From Eisenbergiella porci (lineage in GTDB: Bacteria; Bacillota; Clostridia; Lachnospirales; Lachnospiraceae): a DNA stretch of 64,000 nt. Numbering within the stretch: the first letter of the stretch is position 1; the number at the start of each line of letters is the position of its first letter. The notes under the pieces are model-generated. The model did no database searches. It was not told where the DNA came from and was given only the letters and a program-made list of their open reading frames with translations. A program made the position numbers and the translations under genes. Location of the stretch: the NCBI RefSeq assembly GCF_009696275.1, contig NZ_VUMI01000003.1, forward strand, positions 62,001 to 126,000. Reading direction: 5' to 3'. Shown piece by piece: positions 15,141 to 34,013 of the stretch.

Positions 15141-15478
15141 AAAAAAATCCCTTTTTCCGTCATATCCGGAAAAAAGGACGAGTGTCTGTTACCCGTGTTA
15201 CCACCTTCATTCGCAGCCAGCTCACACTGTCTGCCTCTTCGAGTACGACTGTCCTGTCTCCGGCCTGCAGTCCGGCCAACATCAGCGATACTCTTCGCAG
15301 GATAACGGTTGCTTTCCGTCGCAGCCTACTCTCTTAACGATTTGGGTGCGAAACTCCGGGATGTATTCGGGAAAGTATCTCCTGCGCCTCTCATCTGCCG
15401 GCTGCTTTCTGTAGGTTCTTCTTTTCCTTACTTCTTCCCATCACAGTTTTTAGAAAATGATTCATTTGCTATAAACTA
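15141..15478 (-). promoter_or_regulatory. T-box riboswitch leader of tyrS (tRNA-Tyr sensing)
   Basis: On the minus strand, a Stem I region carries an AGTA-type element and a candidate specifier UAC (Tyr) in GAATACATC near 15360. The T-box core AAGGTGGTAACACGG lies around 15191-15206, whose UGGU pairs with the ACCA end of tRNA-Tyr. The competing intrinsic terminator (CCTTTTTTCCGG / CGGAAAAAGG, then T7) is at 15141-15177. Uncharged tRNA-Tyr would stabilise the antiterminator and permit tyrS transcription. Confidence 0.88.
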
Positions 15479-19569: not shown

Positions 19570-19789
19570 TGAAAAAAGCAGCCATTGAAGGCTGCTCTTA
19601 TCTTTTGTGTCCCCCCAAAATGCCGGCTCTTGTCTTTTGACTCCTAGCTATCTGCTAGGTGGGTTACCGCAACCGGCGCTTCTGCCTTCCCCTGCGCAAT
19701 GAGGGCCTGACATCCACACGGCAATGTAGGAGTCCCGTTTAAAGTAAATGTAGGTTCAAAACAACAAGAGTTATCGAACATTTCAGGTT
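19570..19789 (-). ncRNA. Structured small RNA, probably 6S RNA (ssrS)
   Basis: A free-standing transcription unit of about 220 nt with no ORF. It has a sigma-A promoter (19796-19824), a long closing stem (minus-strand CTCTTGTTGTTTTG near 19768-19755 pairs with CAAAAGACAAGAG near 19645-19633), a large asymmetric bubble, a 3' side hairpin CCTAGC-AGATA-GCTAGG, internal hairpins and a terminal intrinsic terminator (GCAGCC/GGCTGC then T6, 19573-19598). Size, closing stem, bubble and 3' bubble hairpin resemble 6S RNA. The identification is by architecture, not by a covariance match. Confidence 0.5.
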
Positions 19790-19795
19790 AGTTAT

Positions 19796-26263: not shown

Positions 26264-26308
26264 ATTATTTCTTTATATTTTATTATTTCTATATTTTATT
26301 ATTTCTTT
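26259..26308. repeat. Triplicated AT-rich 16-18 bp repeat at the end of thrC
   Basis: Three near-identical units of the form TTTTATTATTTCT(tta)TAta follow one another. The last unit overlaps the thrC stop codon (26299), suggesting slippage duplication between thrC and its terminator. Confidence 0.7.
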
Positions 26309-27798
26309 AGCCCGAGGAAGCTCTTTACAACATCCTTCATGCCGTCTTTTTCACATACGGTATCATGCAGTACAGGAGCTGTCCGGATCTCTTCGATTGC
26401 CGCAGGGATCTCCACATTGGCAATGCGGGCCAGCTCGTCAACCAGCTCAAAATCTCCCCAGGAAGCATACGCATATTTGGGAGCAATGGCCTGCAGCACG
26501 CTTCTTGTAAATTTGAAGGGACTGGCAGTGGAAGCGATGACCGTTACGGTATCCTTATCCCCTGTCGCTTCTTTATACTTGTCATAAACAGCTGCCGCCA
26601 CTGCGGTATGGGTATCAATCACATAGCCCGTATCCTCATAAAGAGCCCTGATCTTTGCGAAGGCTTCCTCCTCTTTTGCATAATTGCCATAAAAATCACC
26701 CAGCTGCGCTTTCATTTCCGGAGTGATTTCATATTTTCCGTCACCGCCCAGCGCTTTCATCAAATCTGCCGTCTTTTCCGGATCATTTCCGGCAATGCGA
26801 TATATCAGGCGCTCCAGATTACTGGAGATCAGAATATCCATGGAAGGAGAACTGGTCAGCACGAATTCACGGTTGCGATCGTATTCCCCTGTGGAAAAGA
26901 AATCGTAAAGCACCTTGTTCTCATTGGAGGCGCAAATCAGCTTATTGATGGGAAGCCCCATATTCTTCGCATAAAACGCCGCCAGAATATTGCCGAAATT
27001 ACCGGTGGGAACCGTCACGTTGATTTTCTCACCCTTTGCAAGCTTGCCTTCCGCCAGCAGCTGCACATAAGCATATACGTAATAAACAATCTGGGGAACC
27101 AGGCGTCCTATGTTAATGGAGTTCGCGGAGGAAAACTGATATCCTCCCGCCGCCATCTCTTTTTCCAGTTCTTTGTCGGAAAAAAGCTTCTTTACACCGG
27201 TCTGGGCATCATCAAAATTGCCGTGGATACCCACCACATGGGTATTGGCCCCTTTCTGGGTAACCATCTGCTTCTCCTGGATCGGGCTGACGCCGTTCTT
27301 GGGGTAAAAAACAATAATTTTCGTTCCCGGCACATCCGCAAAGCCCGCCAGGGCCGCCTTCCCGGTATCCCCGGAGGTTGCCGTAAGAATGACAATTTCC
27401 TTATCCGCTTTATTCTTCGCTGCCGCCGTAATCATCAGATGAGGAAGGATGGATAGCGCCATGTCCTTAAAAGCAATGGTTTTTCCATGAAAAAGCTCCA
27501 GAAAATAAGCGCCGTCCGCTTCCGCCATGGGTGCAATCACTTCCGTGTCAAATTTGCTGTCATAGGCATTGGCAATACACTTCTTCAGCTCTTCCTCCGT
27601 AAAATCAGTGAGAAAAAGCTTCATAACCTCATAAGCCACTTCTCCGTAAGTCATACTGCCCAGTTCTTCCAGCGTCTTATCCAATTGGGGGATTCTCTCC
27701 GGTACGAAAAGGCCCCCGTCCTCTGAAAGTCCCTTCAGAATTGCCTGGGAAGCGCTTACTGACGTGTTACTTCTGGTACTCCTGTATAAGATTTCCAT
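26299..27798 (-). CDS. thrC: Threonine synthase
   Basis: A PLP enzyme that converts O-phosphohomoserine to threonine. The 499-aa protein shows the cofactor lysine in FHGKTIAFKDMAL and the phosphate loop TATSGDTGKAALAG. Its length matches the bacterial/yeast type 2 enzyme. It starts 211 bp downstream of the lanM stop on the same strand. That gap contains only a GCCTGC/GCAGGC hairpin (about 27816-27831), so read-through from the lanthipeptide genes is possible, though I see no functional link. Confidence 0.95.
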   Translation of the reverse strand: MEILYRSTRSNTSVSASQAILKGLSEDGGLFVPERIPQLDKTLEELGSMTYGEVAYEVMKLFLTDFTEEELKKCIANAYDSKFDTEVIAPMAEADGAYFLELFHGKTIAFKDMALSILPHLMITAAAKNKADKEIVILTATSGDTGKAALAGFADVPGTKIIVFYPKNGVSPIQEKQMVTQKGANTHVVGIHGNFDDAQTGVKKLFSDKELEKEMAAGGYQFSSANSINIGRLVPQIVYYVYAYVQLLAEGKLAKGEKINVTVPTGNFGNILAAFYAKNMGLPINKLICASNENKVLYDFFSTGEYDRNREFVLTSSPSMDILISSNLERLIYRIAGNDPEKTADLMKALGGDGKYEITPEMKAQLGDFYGNYAKEEEAFAKIRALYEDTGYVIDTHTAVAAAVYDKYKEATGDKDTVTVIASTASPFKFTRSVLQAIAPKYAYASWGDFELVDELARIANVEIPAAIEEIRTAPVLHDTVCEKDGMKDVVKSFLGLKK

Positions 27799-28009: not shown

Positions 28010-30907
28010 TCAGATTCCACACACCAGAATATCCGGAAGCGTTGTAAATCCGGCCAGCTTCAGGCAGGCATAGCCAATGCCGGACATGCCGCTCATTAAG
28101 CCCCTGGCGTATTTTTCCTGAGGCATAAGACGCCCCTTCTCCAGTTCCTCCAAAGCTGCTCCGCAAAGAGCATTCTTCACCTGCGCAAGCTGTTCTGACG
28201 GAAACGTTTTCCCATAGCGCTCAAGAAGGAGAAGCATTCCCATATTTCCATGGCATAAACACATCCCTTCTCTTCTTCGAAGCGCCAGAAAGCCATGCTC
28301 CGCCAGTCGCAAGTCCTCTTCCATCACTTCCTTCAGCTTCCCGTCCACGTAGGGCAGACAGGCAAGCCTTGCCGCGGCAATACCGCCGAAGCCATGACAC
28401 CAGGCTGCCGCCTGCCAGCGCCCTTCGCCCTCTTCCTGACGCAGATCCGCCCAGTTATGCCATTTTTCACTGTAAAGGCTGCGTTCATAGGCGAGAGCTT
28501 CCGACAAGACAGGTTCATATTCCGTACTTTTCAACAGATAGTCAAGTTTTGCCAGCCCCGGCAGAAAACCGCTGCCGCCGTGGGACATTCCGGCCAGCGC
28601 AGCCTGGGATGCCCGGTTAGGCCAGCCGCTCCCTTTTTCCCGCTTTTGGACATTGGCAGTGAGGATATCCGCAGCCCTGCGGGCAAGCCGCAGATACGCT
28701 TCCGAAGAGGTAATCTCATACATACCGCACAGAACCAGGACCGCTCCGGCATTTCCATATACCAGATCGTAAACGGTATCCTTCTCTATCAGCTCCGGCA
28801 GCAACTGGCTGTGTTTTTCAGCATATTCCAGAAAAACCATTTCTCCTGTTATCCGATACATTGCCTGATATGCATAACATATGGAAGCTTCTCCGCAGAA
28901 AGCGCCCGTACTCTCCGACGCCAGGTTCCTTCTGTCCTCCATGCAGCGGTTTGTATAATGAAAAAGAGTATTTCGCACCGCCCGGCACAGTTCTTCCTGT
29001 TTTCCGCATGCTTTATTAACCGCATGAAGAAATACGGCAATTCCTGCGGTTCCGTTATAGAGATAATAATCCCCCTGCGAAAGCCGGATTCCTTCTTCCT
29101 TCACACCTGCCAGAACCGGTTCTATCCAGTTCACATGCTCTCTTTTTTCGTCCCATAGGGCAGCCTGCCCAATCTGCTCCGCTATTTCCAATGCTTTTTC
29201 ATAAAACCTTCGCTCCCTGTCCCTGCCAGGCGCTATCTGCACCGGGAGGGAGACATAAGAATTGATGAAGTCCGTTTTGTCATAGCCTGACAAATCCATC
29301 GACAGCCCGATGATTTGTTCCTGCCTGACAAGCTCTTCCCTGCACAGCCTGTCCGCTCTATTTTTAAGACAATCGATGAAGGACAGGGGAAAATAGTCCG
29401 GCAATTCCTCTCCTCCTGAGGCAAAAAGGGCGCAGTTGTCAGGCCTTGTAAAATAATAAGGAATATCGCCCTCCTGCAAATCCCGGATCCCATATTCCAC
29501 TGCCTTCTTTTCCGCCCCGGTCAGCGCCGTCTTTCCTGCATACAGGTTCTCGAAAAGCTTCCTCCGGTTCTCTTCCTTTTGCAAAACCATGGGATGGCTG
29601 CCGCCGGATAAAAGAGTGGCATACCTCTGCGTATTGTCCAGGAGCACACGGACTCTGCAGTCCCGGATTTCCTCCATAATTTTCTGAATCACTTTGTTTT
29701 TATCTTTCAAAAACATCAGGCCGGCTTCCCGAAATCCTGATATAATGACAGATTTATAGGCAGTCGGGGATACTTTGTTTCCACTCAGCACCACCTGATT
29801 TTTTCCTGCGGGCATCTGTGGATTTTCATATGAAATTTTCATATCGGAGGTTTTGTCATTGATCACCCTGGCCACTTTTATTGCCGCTTTTTGACCTTCC
29901 CCCGCATTCAGCACATTTACATGCGTCTGCCTCGCCGGGTCAGGAAGGATTCCGCTGTACAGTACGGAATAACTTTCTACGGAATAATTCTCTGCGGGCT
30001 CCTTTTCCCCTCCGGCCGTTGTGCAAAGCACCTCCGTATCTACAGGAACCGGATATTCTCCATGAGCTATCATGTTCTCATAGTGCAGATCTCCCGTCCC
30101 CAGTAAAAAGCTTAGAAAAACACAAACGCCCAGACGTCTGAAATACCGTTCTGTCTGAGACGGCTGCGTACACTCCTGTGGGGAAACCCATTCAATCCAG
30201 GCATATTCCTCACGAAGGACCATGCCATAGGTATAACCTTCCAGCTGTATTCCTTCATAAAAATAATTCAGCAGATTGAGAAATGCCTTTTCCGTTTTGG
30301 CATTGCGTGGTTTATACAGGAAGGTATCTCCCTGATCCGTTTCTATTTTCAACACACATTTCCCATTACTGTGGCAATCCGCCGCCATGTCTTGAATCCC
30401 TGTGATATTTCCCATGGTTCTGCCGTGAAGTATGTTTTTTTCGATTTCCTTCCGATCCACTTCCAGACGGTTTCGCATTTCGCTTAGAAAATCCGCAGAT
30501 TGGCTGATGGTCCTTCTGATATTTTCCGCCAGAAGGGGATATACTTCAAAAAGCTCTTCCCGCAGTTCCTTTCTGCCAAGAATCTGTTCGTTAAAAAACT
30601 GATATTCTTCACTGCTGCTGCCTCCTTCCAGCTTTCCGACGGCTTTGTACATGCTCATTTCTACTATAAGGGTGCGGACGCAGACGGCGTGGAGACGGGA
30701 TAGGATTAGCTCGGGCATTCCCGGACAGAAAAGAGTGCCTGGATTTTCCGAACGGGTATGAAAGGATAGAGCCTGGAGATATTCTTGTTTGGCAGCGGCC
30801 AGGAAAGGGAGATAGAAGGTTCCGAAAGTGTGGGACTTGGATTGGTTGATTTCTTCTACAGACAAAACCGTCTCATAATTTATCAAAAGAAATATATTAT
30901 CTTGCAT
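28010..30907 (-). CDS. lanM: Class II lanthipeptide synthetase LanM
   Basis: A bifunctional enzyme that phosphorylates and dehydrates Ser/Thr of a precursor and then forms (methyl)lanthionine rings with Cys. The 965-aa protein has an N-terminal LanM dehydratase (DUF4135-type) domain with the kinase-like TGDLHYENMIAHG block (271-283) and PVPVDTE. A LanC-like cyclase domain starts around 620 (YNGTAGIAVFLHA). The three zinc ligands are visible: Cys837 (WCHGFGG), Cys885 and His886 (LCHGNMG). The ATG at 30907 has AAGGA seven bases upstream; upstream in-frame starts overlap the attenuator. The precursor gene lies 84 bp upstream, separated by a terminator-like hairpin. No transporter gene follows; thrC is next. 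Confidence 0.95.
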   Translation of the reverse strand: MQDNIFLLINYETVLSVEEINQSKSHTFGTFYLPFLAAAKQEYLQALSFHTRSENPGTLFCPGMPELILSRLHAVCVRTLIVEMSMYKAVGKLEGGSSSEEYQFFNEQILGRKELREELFEVYPLLAENIRRTISQSADFLSEMRNRLEVDRKEIEKNILHGRTMGNITGIQDMAADCHSNGKCVLKIETDQGDTFLYKPRNAKTEKAFLNLLNYFYEGIQLEGYTYGMVLREEYAWIEWVSPQECTQPSQTERYFRRLGVCVFLSFLLGTGDLHYENMIAHGEYPVPVDTEVLCTTAGGEKEPAENYSVESYSVLYSGILPDPARQTHVNVLNAGEGQKAAIKVARVINDKTSDMKISYENPQMPAGKNQVVLSGNKVSPTAYKSVIISGFREAGLMFLKDKNKVIQKIMEEIRDCRVRVLLDNTQRYATLLSGGSHPMVLQKEENRRKLFENLYAGKTALTGAEKKAVEYGIRDLQEGDIPYYFTRPDNCALFASGGEELPDYFPLSFIDCLKNRADRLCREELVRQEQIIGLSMDLSGYDKTDFINSYVSLPVQIAPGRDRERRFYEKALEIAEQIGQAALWDEKREHVNWIEPVLAGVKEEGIRLSQGDYYLYNGTAGIAVFLHAVNKACGKQEELCRAVRNTLFHYTNRCMEDRRNLASESTGAFCGEASICYAYQAMYRITGEMVFLEYAEKHSQLLPELIEKDTVYDLVYGNAGAVLVLCGMYEITSSEAYLRLARRAADILTANVQKREKGSGWPNRASQAALAGMSHGGSGFLPGLAKLDYLLKSTEYEPVLSEALAYERSLYSEKWHNWADLRQEEGEGRWQAAAWCHGFGGIAAARLACLPYVDGKLKEVMEEDLRLAEHGFLALRRREGMCLCHGNMGMLLLLERYGKTFPSEQLAQVKNALCGAALEELEKGRLMPQEKYARGLMSGMSGIGYACLKLAGFTTLPDILVCGI

Positions 30908-30953
30908 AGCATTTTCCTTACCCATATACTTTTTTAAATTCACTGAAGTATAT

Positions 30954-30986
30954 AAAAAAGCAAGATGCCAAAACATCTTGCTTTTT
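30954..30986 (-). terminator. Attenuator/terminator between lanA and lanM
   Basis: Minus-strand GCAAGATG, TTTTGG loop, CATCTTGC, then six T residues (30959-30954). It follows six bases after the precursor stop codon, so most transcripts should end here, giving high lanA and low lanM expression, the usual precursor:enzyme stoichiometry. Confidence 0.88.
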
Positions 30987-30991
30987 GCTTT

Positions 30992-31135
30992 TTAACAACA
31001 AAAAATTGTAAAAAACTGAGTTGAAGCTGTAATATCAGGTGCCTGCACCTCATTGATATCTTCTTTTTGAATCTCCTTCATCTCAAAGGTAACATCTCCT
31101 GCACAAGACATAAAGTCTTCTCTCTTCATTTCCAT
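30992..31135 (-). CDS. lanA: Lanthipeptide precursor peptide (47 aa)
   Basis: A short ORF with AAGGAGG nine bases before the ATG at 31135. The leader is acidic (EDFMSCAGDVTFEMKEI, then QKEDINEV). The predicted core region is near APDITASTQFFTIFCC, with Thr36, Ser38, Thr39, Thr43 as dehydratable residues and adjacent Cys46-Cys47 at the very end. The C terminus resembles the QF-FTCC end of the lacticin 481/ruminococcin A group but lacks their N-terminal ring segment. There is no double-glycine cleavage site, and Cys11 lies in the leader. Position between the sensor kinase gene and lanM makes it the obvious substrate. Too short for ordinary gene calling. Confidence 0.85.
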   Translation of the reverse strand: MEMKREDFMSCAGDVTFEMKEIQKEDINEVQAPDITASTQFFTIFCC

Positions 31136-31149
31136 ATTTGTTTTCCTCC

Positions 31150-32460
31150 TTAATAAAATAATGAAATATTTATTTTAAATATTTTCATTTCAGCCCTATA
31201 TTCCAAAATACCATTGTATTTTTCCACCGAATTCTGCACACTTTTTATTCCAAGACCATGCATGTACTCATTATTTTTGCTACTTTTTAACCAACCATTA
31301 TCTCGCTGAATCTTACCATCAAATGTATTTGATATATTAATAATTGTTGCACATTCATTCTGATTTATATTAATTTTAATCCAACGTTCCGATTCTTTCA
31401 GTTTCAAACATGCTTCAATTGCATTATCAAGAAGATTAGACAATATAGAGCACCAGTCAATGTCCTGTATCCTTCCTTCTGAAATTATACCAGTTTTTAC
31501 CATAAAATCAATATCATTATTCTCAGCTTTTTCAATTTTATCAGCTAATATGATATCAACTATTCTATTCCCAGTATATTTTTTATGTTCTAACTTTAGA
31601 ATTGGTTCTGTCACCTTACCTATATAGCTTTCCGCTCTATCTAAATCCCTTTCTGCAATCAACATCGATAATACAGCTAAATGGTTCTTCATATCATGAA
31701 AGACACGTTCTCGCTTTTGATATAATAAAAACATTTCCTGATAATTTTTCTCTATCAAATTATTTTGGCTATTCACCAAGTGTATTTCATTTTTCTTTTC
31801 AATATACATAATATAAATAACTATTATAATAAAGAAAAGAATTAACAAACTCGGAAACAATATAAAATAGAAATCTGTACTCCCTTTTAAACGATATGGT
31901 ACATAATAAATTCTTTCACAAAAATATAATCCTATATAAACAACTGAAACAAATCCCCAAAACATTAACTGATATTTATCAAATGTTTGTCCTATCAATT
32001 TTTTCTTTTTTATTATCCCGATTAATCCAATATAAAGTATTGCTCTACCAATTGACATTGTCAAAATTCTTTTCCAGCATAATTCATTCTGAACACAATT
32101 TATAAAATCAATGCTTATAAAAAAATATTGTCCTGTATAACTAAACAAAAGATCAAGAAAGTAGAGAATAACAAAATATAACGAAGAAATTAATAAGGCT
32201 TTAATAAATTTAACTCTATAAAAAGATATACTTACAAGTACAAACAATGTAATACACAAAAACATATAAAATCGAGAATACATAGCTACTGTTTCCCGAT
32301 GATATACCGTCAGCCCCCAAAGTAAAACTCCCGACAAAAACCACAAAATATTACTCCAGGCTTTATCGCTCCTCTTATCAAAGAACACCTGAAGTAAATA
32401 ATATAGTCCGCAAATCTCTACAGCACAAAGCACACCCTGCGCAACTCTCAGCCAAATCAC
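31150..32460 (-). CDS. GHKL sensor histidine kinase (AgrC/ComD-like)
   Basis: A 436-aa membrane kinase. Six to seven hydrophobic helices span residues 1-220. The cytoplasmic part carries the H-box FHDMKNHL (His255), the N-box DWCSILSNLLDNAIEAC and the G-box HGLGIKSV of the HPK10/GHKL class, which typically detects peptides. The start codon overlaps the response-regulator stop by 4 bp (ATGA), so the two are translationally coupled. It ends 14 bp before the lanA start. The gene is strikingly AT-rich compared with neighbours, suggesting a separate origin. It may sense the mature lanthipeptide and autoinduce the locus; that is inference. Confidence 0.88.
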   Translation of the reverse strand: MIWLRVAQGVLCAVEICGLYYLLQVFFDKRSDKAWSNILWFLSGVLLWGLTVYHRETVAMYSRFYMFLCITLFVLVSISFYRVKFIKALLISSLYFVILYFLDLLFSYTGQYFFISIDFINCVQNELCWKRILTMSIGRAILYIGLIGIIKKKKLIGQTFDKYQLMFWGFVSVVYIGLYFCERIYYVPYRLKGSTDFYFILFPSLLILFFIIIVIYIMYIEKKNEIHLVNSQNNLIEKNYQEMFLLYQKRERVFHDMKNHLAVLSMLIAERDLDRAESYIGKVTEPILKLEHKKYTGNRIVDIILADKIEKAENNDIDFMVKTGIISEGRIQDIDWCSILSNLLDNAIEACLKLKESERWIKININQNECATIINISNTFDGKIQRDNGWLKSSKNNEYMHGLGIKSVQNSVEKYNGILEYRAEMKIFKINISLFY

Positions 32461-33206
32461 ATCCTATCCCTCCAAAAATAATGGATAGCCTCTTTTACCT
32501 CTTTCATATGTGTTCTGCCAATCTGAAGCCGCTTTCCGTTTCTGAGCGTAATCTCTTTATTTTCGAGCTTTACAATATGCTTGATATTAACGATATAACC
32601 TCGCTCCACACAAAGGAACTCGCTGGAATCCAGCTGTATGTAGACCTCCTGGAGTGACTTGCGTACCGGAACTTCCCTGTCAATTAAGACGAAAACTGCA
32701 TTTTTATTATTTTTGTAAACATATATAATTTCTTGATATTCTATCCGTTCAAAACGGGAATTAGTTTCAACAAAATAATATTTTTCTATTTTCTTCTGCA
32801 TTTCCCCCAAAATCTCCAGAAGAGTTGCCTCAAGCTTCTCTTCCAGGAGATTCTTTGGGATATAGGAAAAAGCTTTTACCTCATACCCTTCCACGGCATA
32901 TTGTAGATATGAGGTAATGAAAATCAGATACGTAGCCTGTGCAGTTTCCCGGATTTTTCGCGCAAGTTCCAGGCCGTTCATTTGTGGCATTTCGATGTCC
33001 AGAAAACAGATATCATATTGAAATCCTTCTTCTAGATCAAAATAAAAAACCTCCGGGTTAGGGAAAAGTCTGACTTCGCACAAAACATTTTTGCCATCAA
33101 AGAACGTATGCACTTTTTTACGCAGAAGCAGAAGAAAGTCGGTATTGTCATCAACCAAAGCTATTTTCAACAAATCCTCTGCCCCCCTATCTGGTTTCAC
33201 ATTCAT
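32457..33206 (-). CDS. LytTR-family response regulator
   Basis: A receiver domain (phospho-acceptor Asp70 in CFLDIEMPQ, acidic pocket VDDN at 18-21) followed by a LytTR DNA-binding domain (about 140-245, with VERGYIVNIKHI and RNGKRLQIGRTH). It pairs with the GHKL kinase. Start choice is uncertain. The ATG at 33206 overlaps a TATAAT and lacks a good ribosome binding site, whereas TTG at 33170 (LKIALVDDN) has AGAGGA just before it. Two AACGG (minus CCGTT) half-sites, 12 bp apart at 33267-33283, may be LytTR sites for autoregulation, but their spacing is not the classical 21-22 bp. Confidence 0.88.
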   Translation of the reverse strand: MNVKPDRGAEDLLKIALVDDNTDFLLLLRKKVHTFFDGKNVLCEVRLFPNPEVFYFDLEEGFQYDICFLDIEMPQMNGLELARKIRETAQATYLIFITSYLQYAVEGYEVKAFSYIPKNLLEEKLEATLLEILGEMQKKIEKYYFVETNSRFERIEYQEIIYVYKNNKNAVFVLIDREVPVRKSLQEVYIQLDSSEFLCVERGYIVNIKHIVKLENKEITLRNGKRLQIGRTHMKEVKEAIHYFWRDRM

Positions 33207-33210: not shown

Positions 33211-33386
33211 CCTGCTTATTCTGGAAAAAGATTCCTTTGTCCTCCAATGGCACTTTTTTGACCTCAAACGGCATACATAACGGTTATAATTATATACGAT
33301 TTCAATTTAAAAGGAAATATTTATCTTATTTTTTTAGAAAAACCTTATATTTTTCGGCCGCAGTCCATTACATCCCAATTTCCGTC

Positions 33387-34013
33387 TCAGCTTCCAAAAA
33401 ATTCATGCCCGCCATAAGCAAACAGCCATGTCAGGTGATTATCAAACCACTGCATCCGATCCGGCGCCACAGCACGCCGTGCGACAAAATACAATGCGCC
33501 CTGGGAGATATCTTCCCCGTAAACAGCTCGTTCCACGGCACGCCGGGTTTCCTCGCTCACCCTCACCCTGTTGATTCTGCCGTCGCTGACCGGAGAAAAC
33601 TGGCAGACACCGAACTCCTTCTGATAGACCACTCCGGTCACCGTGTCGGGGAAAATATTGCTGTTAACCCTGTTTAAAACAACGTTGGCAACAAGAAGCT
33701 TGCCGTTCTCATCCTCACCGCCGGCCTCCGCCTCCACAATTTTCAAAAGTGCTTCATAATCCGCATCGTTTAACTGGTAAACCGGCTTTTTCTCCAGAAC
33801 GCCGCAGTGGATAACCCGCTGATCCGAGGAAGCCGCCTGCACCACAGTACTGACGCTTGTCTCCTGAAAGTCGGCGATATCTTCCATAACAGACGCCCTG
33901 AAGGCCTGCCTTGAGGCAATAGTATTTATCTCCACACCGCGCACACACAGCCACGCTGTAACCACAAGCAAATTGGACAATAATAAAACAAGCCCGTATT
34001 TTTTATACTGCAT
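33387..34013 (-). CDS. Cell-wall hydrolase, SleB/Hydrolase_2 family
   Basis: A 208-aa protein with an N-terminal signal-anchor helix (about 7-23) and a C-terminal SleB-type catalytic domain: the active-site Glu lies in VEAEAGGEDENGKLLVANVVLNRV, followed by VVYQKEFGVCQFSPV and LYFVARRA. Members are spore-cortex lytic enzymes or related lytic transglycosylases. There is no N-terminal peptidoglycan-binding domain, so it is closer to CwlJ/YkvT-type enzymes than to SleB itself. The annotated ATG lacks a clear ribosome binding site, so the start is uncertain. Confidence 0.8.
   Translation of the reverse strand: MQYKKYGLVLLLSNLLVVTAWLCVRGVEINTIASRQAFRASVMEDIADFQETSVSTVVQAASSDQRVIHCGVLEKKPVYQLNDADYEALLKIVEAEAGGEDENGKLLVANVVLNRVNSNIFPDTVTGVVYQKEFGVCQFSPVSDGRINRVRVSEETRRAVERAVYGEDISQGALYFVARRAVAPDRMQWFDNHLTWLFAYGGHEFFGS

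Follow-up and report, generated by a model that had tools for sequence, protein, structure and literature searches.

The stretch of DNA analysed here, referred to below as the window, comprises 64,000 nucleotides (nt) of a contig of Eisenbergiella porci, a member of the family Lachnospiraceae whose assembly of 6.1 Mb consists of 149 contigs. The minus strand of the window carries a compact cassette for a putative class II lanthipeptide, located between the genes of a SleB-like hydrolase and of threonine synthase (thrC). The cassette consists, in this order, of a LytTR regulator, a GHKL kinase, an open reading frame (ORF) of 47 amino acid residues (aa), a hairpin and a LanM lanthionine synthetase, and all four genes are open frames in the window. 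The features and their positions in the window are as follows:

33238 to 33271, minus strand: predicted operator of the regulator, a direct repeat of period 21 located 5' of the regulator gene and conserved upstream of all five Eisenbergiella units of the locus
32457 to 33173, minus strand: LytTR response regulator (RR), AgrA-like; Pfam LytTR 60 bits and Response_reg 59 bits, supported by the frames of the relatives
31150 to 32460, minus strand: GHKL sensor histidine kinase (HK) with an AgrC-like kinase module; PF14501 82 bits, phospho-acceptor motif FHDMKNH
30992 to 31135, minus strand: putative lanthipeptide precursor of 47 aa; homologues at the equivalent place in all 19 cassettes of this type, strong ribosome-binding site
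30955 to 30986, minus strand: intrinsic-terminator-like hairpin in the gap between precursor and LanM; -17.6 kcal/mol, z -3.0, also present in relatives
28010 to 30907, minus strand: LanM class II lanthionine synthetase; TIGR03897 691 bits, motifs aligned with LicM2 and partly with CylM
26299 to 27798, minus strand: thrC, downstream flank outside the cassette; Pfam threonine synthase domains, flank kept in E. tayi and in the related genome G401
33387 to 34013, minus strand: SleB-like cell wall hydrolase, upstream flank outside the cassette; PF07486, kept in both relatives beyond a second RR-HK pair

An earlier note on this DNA had described the five elements from regulator to LanM in this order, with a strong AAGGAGG site and a Cys-Cys end on a precursor short enough to be missed. 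Both descriptions proved correct, each element lying where the note had placed it. The LanM score lies well above the TIGR03897 cut-off of 304 bits and the gene is complete, which bears out the assignment of the locus to the class II lanthipeptides made in the same note.

LanM also matches DUF4135 (290 bits) and LANC_like (170 bits). Its zinc-ligand motifs WCHG and LCHG align with those of LicM2; for CylM, the second zinc motif alone is within the alignment. The dehydratase motifs, that is, the lysine of YKP, D-x-H-x-x-N, D-x-E and the R/T of the RVLLDNT stretch, align with both LicM2 and CylM. We take these zinc-ligand and dehydratase residues, those of CylM included, to have the functional roles commonly assigned to them. 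Both sets of motifs are invariant in the three Eisenbergiella LanM proteins, and judged by its residues the enzyme looks catalytically complete. The translation start is likelier to be the ATG at 30907 (965 aa, after AAGGA) than position 30976, which opens the longest frame (988 aa) and is doubtful because it falls inside the hairpin. The LanM search of the source genome gave one match in total. A scan of genome contigs with the window LanM alone returned no relative, and a scan with the three LanM proteins returned two Eisenbergiella records and nothing else.

The precursor ORF starts 9 nt after its Shine-Dalgarno sequence. The peptide has the leader REDFM..AGDV.FE and the core-like end TASTQFFTIFCC. 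The peptides at the equivalent place in G401 and in E. tayi end in TASTPLFSIFCC and TESTPFLSIFCC, respectively. Between the window and G401 the codons of the precursor differ at 11, 8 and 26 first, second and third positions, a pattern that is a coding signature. A profile built from six Eisenbergiella peptides with a Cys-Cys (CC) end matched three genomes of other genera among 397 surveyed Lachnospiraceae genomes (E 7e-5 to 6e-3), and all three matches sit directly 5' of a LanM gene. The CC ending is rare, being found in 31 of 3593 small ORFs of 20 fetched loci, precursors included. Because of these cross-genus matches, the codon pattern and the rarity of the ending, the ORF is, by comparison of its sequences, more than a product of chance.

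A precursor was found in every one of the 19 cassettes. These peptides are 43 to 59 aa long and share an [ST]xxCC end with at most one residue beyond it. A further Cys lies near the end in 15 of the 19, the others being the three Eisenbergiella peptides and that of genome G350. A wider profile, built from 21 peptides, matched strongly at 17 places in the 397 genomes (E 4e-20 to 1e-11), all directly 5' of cassette LanM genes, with the next match at 2e-3; 16 of the 17 were members of the profile by construction, the exception being G323. Four of the 17 weaker matches (E 0.002 to 0.08) were inspected. The one in G025:C23 is an HK-linked CC-peptide, and that in G225 is a leader-like frame of 30 aa without a core, close to a contig end. 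Those in G148 and G036, on the strand opposite a conserved gene, appear to be due to chance. In G025:C23 (L125 156-1635) the HK-linked peptide, 44 aa long and ending in ..GGGIYTLFCC, precedes a LanM fragment, and the genome also holds a LanT-type LanM. No family for the window precursor was found in Pfam or NCBIfam, nor in NCBIfam for three other precursors, and a tblastn search of phages with one precursor gave no match.

The comparison with related genomes that the earlier note had suggested finds the locus kept in both Eisenbergiella relatives and spread far beyond the genus. LanM above the cut-off is present in 27 of the 397 genomes: 16 genomes (17 loci) are of the window type, 10 are of the LanT type, in which LanM is accompanied by the transporter LanT, and one (G223) holds an orphan. 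With G401 and G407 (E. tayi) added, the cassette is found at 19 loci in 18 genomes of 13 genera. HK and RR genes lie directly 5' of the precursor in 18 of the 19, the sequence of G163 stopping at a contig end. Single pieces are broken or cut off in a few cassettes: the kinase of G015 is in two frames, the LanM of G032 runs off the contig, and that of G323 is split by an insertion that by eye is IS21-like. In the last of these (L105 2847-11635) the interrupted LanM is followed by a radical S-adenosylmethionine (SAM)/SPASM protein with a PqqD-like domain and by an apparent ATP-binding cassette (ABC) ATPase.

In the tree of LanM proteins, 18 cassette members and the orphan are separated by a branch with 96/96 support from 14 LanT-linked LanM proteins of the same family. 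The cassettes do not form a strict clade, since the orphan G223 falls inside this branch. The tree leaves out G032, the second LanM proteins of G009 and G147 and the G025:C23 fragment, takes G323 as one fragment, and contains several long branches or sequences of odd composition, T_G250 among them. The earlier note had raised the possibility that the locus is a reduced form of larger clusters. Reduction as a local accident is not borne out, given the minimal RR-HK-precursor-LanM set in 13 genera and its own LanM branch. Two genomes, G319 and G025, show mixed features: a 76-aa peptide that contains a GAG motif and ends in AECPIMTIICC occurs there together with LanT.

The earlier note had found no LanT within reach, and a genome-wide search for the C39 peptidase domain extends this result: the source genome contains no C39-ABC LanT, the sole match being of 23 bits in an ORF of 308 aa without an ABC part. 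G401, which is one contig, and E. tayi gave no C39 match at all, and none of the stretches fetched around the 19 cassettes contains a full-length LanT. A strong C39 domain (at least 100 bits) was found in 10 of 10 LanT-type genomes versus 2 of 18 cassette genomes, counts that are not independent owing to shared ancestry. In nine of the LanT-type genomes LanT lies inside the fetched stretch; that of G147 stops at a contig end, and C39 proteins are on other contigs. Single absences weigh little because completeness is limited in part of the cassette genomes (78 to 87% for G390, G030 and G163). The single-contig genomes G401, G085 and G323 have no C39 match, and G345, also one contig, has a weak match only. 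A C39 LanT encoded elsewhere, one form of the distant transporter that the earlier note had considered, therefore appears unlikely in the 16 of 18 cassette genomes that lack a strong C39 domain. A search with LanT queries revealed no transporter gene common to all cassettes.

Within Eisenbergiella, LanM is present in 3 of 13 genomes, each time flanked by the SleB-like gene and thrC. In this genus the peptide is consistently accompanied by the kinase, and the modifying enzyme is variable or missing. G401 has a second RR-HK pair upstream, with a peptide of its own (..TENTPVLTFYCC) and a hairpin, and no LanM. The E. tayi counterpart of this pair has a kinase without the usual histidine motif and no CC-peptide behind it; judged by its sequence the unit is probably decayed. 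This kinase (L022 14005-15318) reads RNMKSDL where HDMKNHL is usual. A profile of four peptides revealed two additional CC-peptides in the genus. One belongs to an RR-HK-peptide unit of G401 (L043 6340-12115) located directly 5' of a gene of the lactococcin-972 family (above the cut-off), beside which are a bacteriocin-associated membrane protein (below the cut-off) and, judged by eye, an apparent ABC ATPase. This neighbourhood is possibly an output of the signal. The other, in E. tayi G407:C12 (L044 5053-12149), follows an RR-HK pair and precedes two PapB-like radical SAM proteins, a QhpE-like subtilase and a radical SAM/SPASM protein; all four score under the curated cut-offs, and the names therefore indicate relatives and not functions.

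The kinases of these units point to the Agr family. A profile of 23 of them matched, among solved structures (PDB, E <= 0.01), only Staphylococcus aureus AgrC (6e52 and 4bxi), in the kinase module. In the predicted model of the kinase, seven long helices precede and reach the dimerization region (predicted local distance difference test, pLDDT, 83), and the N-terminal half is modelled as multi-helical. The regulator probably starts at the TTG at 33173 (238 aa), although a longer ATG frame extends to 33206 (249 aa). The longer start coincides with a TATAAT, and the TTG giving 238 aa opens the longest frame in three of the four sister units of the locus; the longer frame is also present in the second G401 unit, but with a TTG start.

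Two regulatory elements accompany these genes. The energy of the hairpin between precursor and LanM was equalled in none of 200 shuffles. In the window and in three related units the hairpin 3' of the precursor has z values from -3.0 to -7.9, and the G401 unit without LanM also has one. A stem-loop of -11 kcal/mol or lower starting within 40 nt of the stop codon was found in 19 of 22 units, a count made without shuffles and in which some stems overlap the LanM frame; none was found in G262, the second G289 locus and the E. tayi radical SAM unit. A pattern derived from the direct repeat gave one match in the window and none in 100 shuffles, the pattern having been built from these sites. For repeats of period 19 to 24 located 5' of the regulator, the number of shuffles, out of 300, that reached the observed score or more was 8 for the window and 9 to 300 for the 13 other units tested, so the operator assignment rests on conservation among relatives. 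A direct LytTR consensus was tried as a means of ranking the repeat and gave no clear rank. Sites with two or three mismatches were excluded from the count because a reversed-pattern control yields 0 to 2 matches per strand; one such uncounted site sits 5' of the regulator gene in the radical SAM unit of E. tayi. An Rfam scan gave no match inside the cassette. Elsewhere on the minus strand of the window it found a T-box leader (15171-15453, 107 bits) and a 6S RNA (19608-19792, 64 bits).

It is useful to compare the cassette with known systems. The loci of the lacticin 481, ruminococcin A and lichenicidin types are, as we understand them, class II LanM and LanT loci. The cassette resembles them in its TIGR03897 LanM with zinc and dehydratase motifs, a short precursor with Ser, Thr and Cys, two-component genes and a hairpin after the precursor. 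It differs from them in having no LanT, no clear GG/GA cleavage motif and a very short core-like end. No G-G/A/S pair occurs within the last 30 residues of 16 of the 19 LanM-linked precursors; those of G373, G032 and G390 have one, inside the core-like end. A GG/GA motif, a TVSx[ED]C motif and an FTCC end are presumably marks of the lacticin 481 group. The window peptide departs from all three, belonging to the 16 without the pair, having no internal Cys within its last 20 residues and ending in TIFCC. The same three features are given for predicted class II peptides in PMC13289728.

The AgrBDCA system is similar in combining an AgrC-like kinase module with a LytTR regulator, in the short peptide beside the kinase and in the operator-like direct repeat before the operon. 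AgrD has its Cys inside the thiolactone motif, followed by a charged tail. In the cassette, unlike Agr, LanM stands at the place of AgrB and the Cys residues are at the extreme C-terminus. No AgrB or AgrD-type precursor was found at the locus, where the gene-sized minus-strand frames from the SleB-like gene to thrC belong to other Pfam families (the search for AgrB covered the locus and not the genome).

The nearest of the papers listed is PMC10301443. It describes CA_C0082 LanM-like proteins encoded downstream of agr operons in Clostridium, which are 670-728 aa long, lack the zinc and dehydratase residues and lie beside complete agr clusters in all but one species; CA_C0082-type mutants still produced active signal (PMC10301443). 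Both these loci and the cassette have, within the Clostridia, a gene of the LanM family in direct linkage with a kinase and regulator of the Agr type; they differ in that the LanM of the cassette is complete and a LanA-like precursor is present. Among the matches listed from the open-access literature, the scope being one without subscription papers and preprints, no title or abstract describes the cassette.

The gene set and its conservation, the LanM motifs, the AgrC-like kinase module, the precursor family, the hairpin and the repeat allow us to propose a mechanism. The regulator and kinase would be made first. The same transcript would also carry the precursor and mostly end at the hairpin, with read-through leading to LanM. 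LanM would then dehydrate Ser and Thr among the dozen C-terminal residues (TASTQFFTIFCC) and close thioether rings onto the two terminal Cys. After removal of the leader, the small ringed peptide would leave the cell by a route other than LanT and bind the multi-helix half of the kinase, leading to phosphorylation of the LytTR regulator. The regulator would act on the direct repeat 5' of its own operon and thus amplify the signal. On the sequence evidence we give an about even chance to the cassette being a self-contained signalling module of the Agr kind, with a lanthipeptide made by LanM as its pheromone. Signalling does not figure in the earlier note, although the make-up of the cassette favours it. 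A broader proposal is put forward tentatively: the cassettes may represent an Agr-like class of quorum-sensing systems in which LanM replaces AgrB and the autoinducer has thioether rings instead of a thiolactone, present in at least 13 Lachnospiraceae genera, with the kinase-peptide unit elsewhere combined with radical SAM maturases.

The foremost rival explanation is an ordinary small lantibiotic whose synthesis is under the control of the neighbouring two-component system and whose export and trimming fall to unlinked machinery of a non-C39 kind. We regard it as possible, though rather unlikely. Two-component control is usual in lantibiotic clusters, so the adjacency of HK and RR alone cannot separate the two functions. 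The apparent completeness of LanM would suit a lantibiotic, and so would the longer TIICC-ending peptide found together with LanT in G319 and G025. The hydrophobic stretch and terminal CC also recall the FTCC end described in PMC13289728 for predicted class II peptides. ABC ATPases without C39 (223-271 aa) are present in the fetched stretch of six of the 19 cassettes (the first G289 locus, G015, G340, G350, G373 and G323), and that of the first G289 locus could serve export or immunity. At that locus (L048 4268-8539) a DUF2712 protein and unidentified ORFs lie downstream together with the ATPase. However, a lantibiotic would have to accommodate the lack of a full-length LanT at all 19 loci and of a strong C39 domain in 16 of 18 genomes, the very short putative core, and an Eisenbergiella peptide that keeps to the kinase even without LanM. 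Signalling is judged likelier than killing for two reasons: in Eisenbergiella the kinase is the partner that the peptide keeps when the enzyme changes or is absent, and LanT is part of no cassette seen.

Several further observations weigh against the signalling proposal. The AgrC match is limited to the kinase module, and a simple search for the histidine motif matched 11 of 15 kinases. The two cassette genomes with a strong C39 domain, G015 and G340, are of one genus and carry it on other contigs. No exporter or protease was found for the cassette, the genome-wide search being aimed at C39 only, which leaves the route of the signal to the membrane kinase unexplained. The orphan LanM of G223, on the same branch, has neither a kinase nor a CC-peptide. 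The repeat pattern has one further site in the source genome (one mismatch, G000:C35:119785-119818, L141 1501-1534), and this site has no convincing target. Some 500 nt with no clear gene separate it from an ORF of 53 aa; an RNA target is conceivable, with nothing supporting it. Co-variation favours signalling only partly. Distance tests were made with 15 of the 19 cassettes (leaving out G015, G163, G032 and G323) and with a set of 12 rows from which near copies were removed and which retains both G289 loci. In the latter set LanM and HK distances are correlated (Mantel r 0.73, p 0.0006). Those of HK and precursor are not (r 0.07, p 0.31), and the correlations of LanM with RR and with precursor drop to p 0.08 and 0.10. 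As precursor distances do not follow HK distances once near copies are removed, no co-variation of peptide and receptor is shown. A modified peptide that is never exported, and that works in the cytoplasm or on the inner side of the membrane, for instance by binding the kinase from within the cell, would agree with the lack of LanT, of a transporter gene shared by all cassettes in the LanT-query search, and of a G-G/A/S pair in most precursors. It is improbable, as nothing positive points to an internal ligand and the known AgrC-class kinases sense extracellular peptides. A decaying remnant of a larger lanthipeptide cluster is very improbable. Single pieces do decay, as seen in the second E. 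tayi kinase unit, the split LanM of G323 and the two-frame kinase of G015, but the four genes of the window are open with intact LanM motifs, and the minimal set is found again in 13 genera.

In appearance the cassette is closer to a system for chemical signalling than to a gene cluster for an antibiotic, and it is no isolated case of reduction. The Lachnospiraceae, which are dominant in the gut, have very many GHKL/LytTR pairs, and to our knowledge few signals are known for these pairs. Should the peptide be a lantibiotic, an entire branch of LanM enzymes relies on an export route that has yet to be named. If it is a pheromone, it would provide a chemically stable and synthesizable ligand for a GHKL/LytTR pair, and LanM would serve signalling in the place of AgrB.

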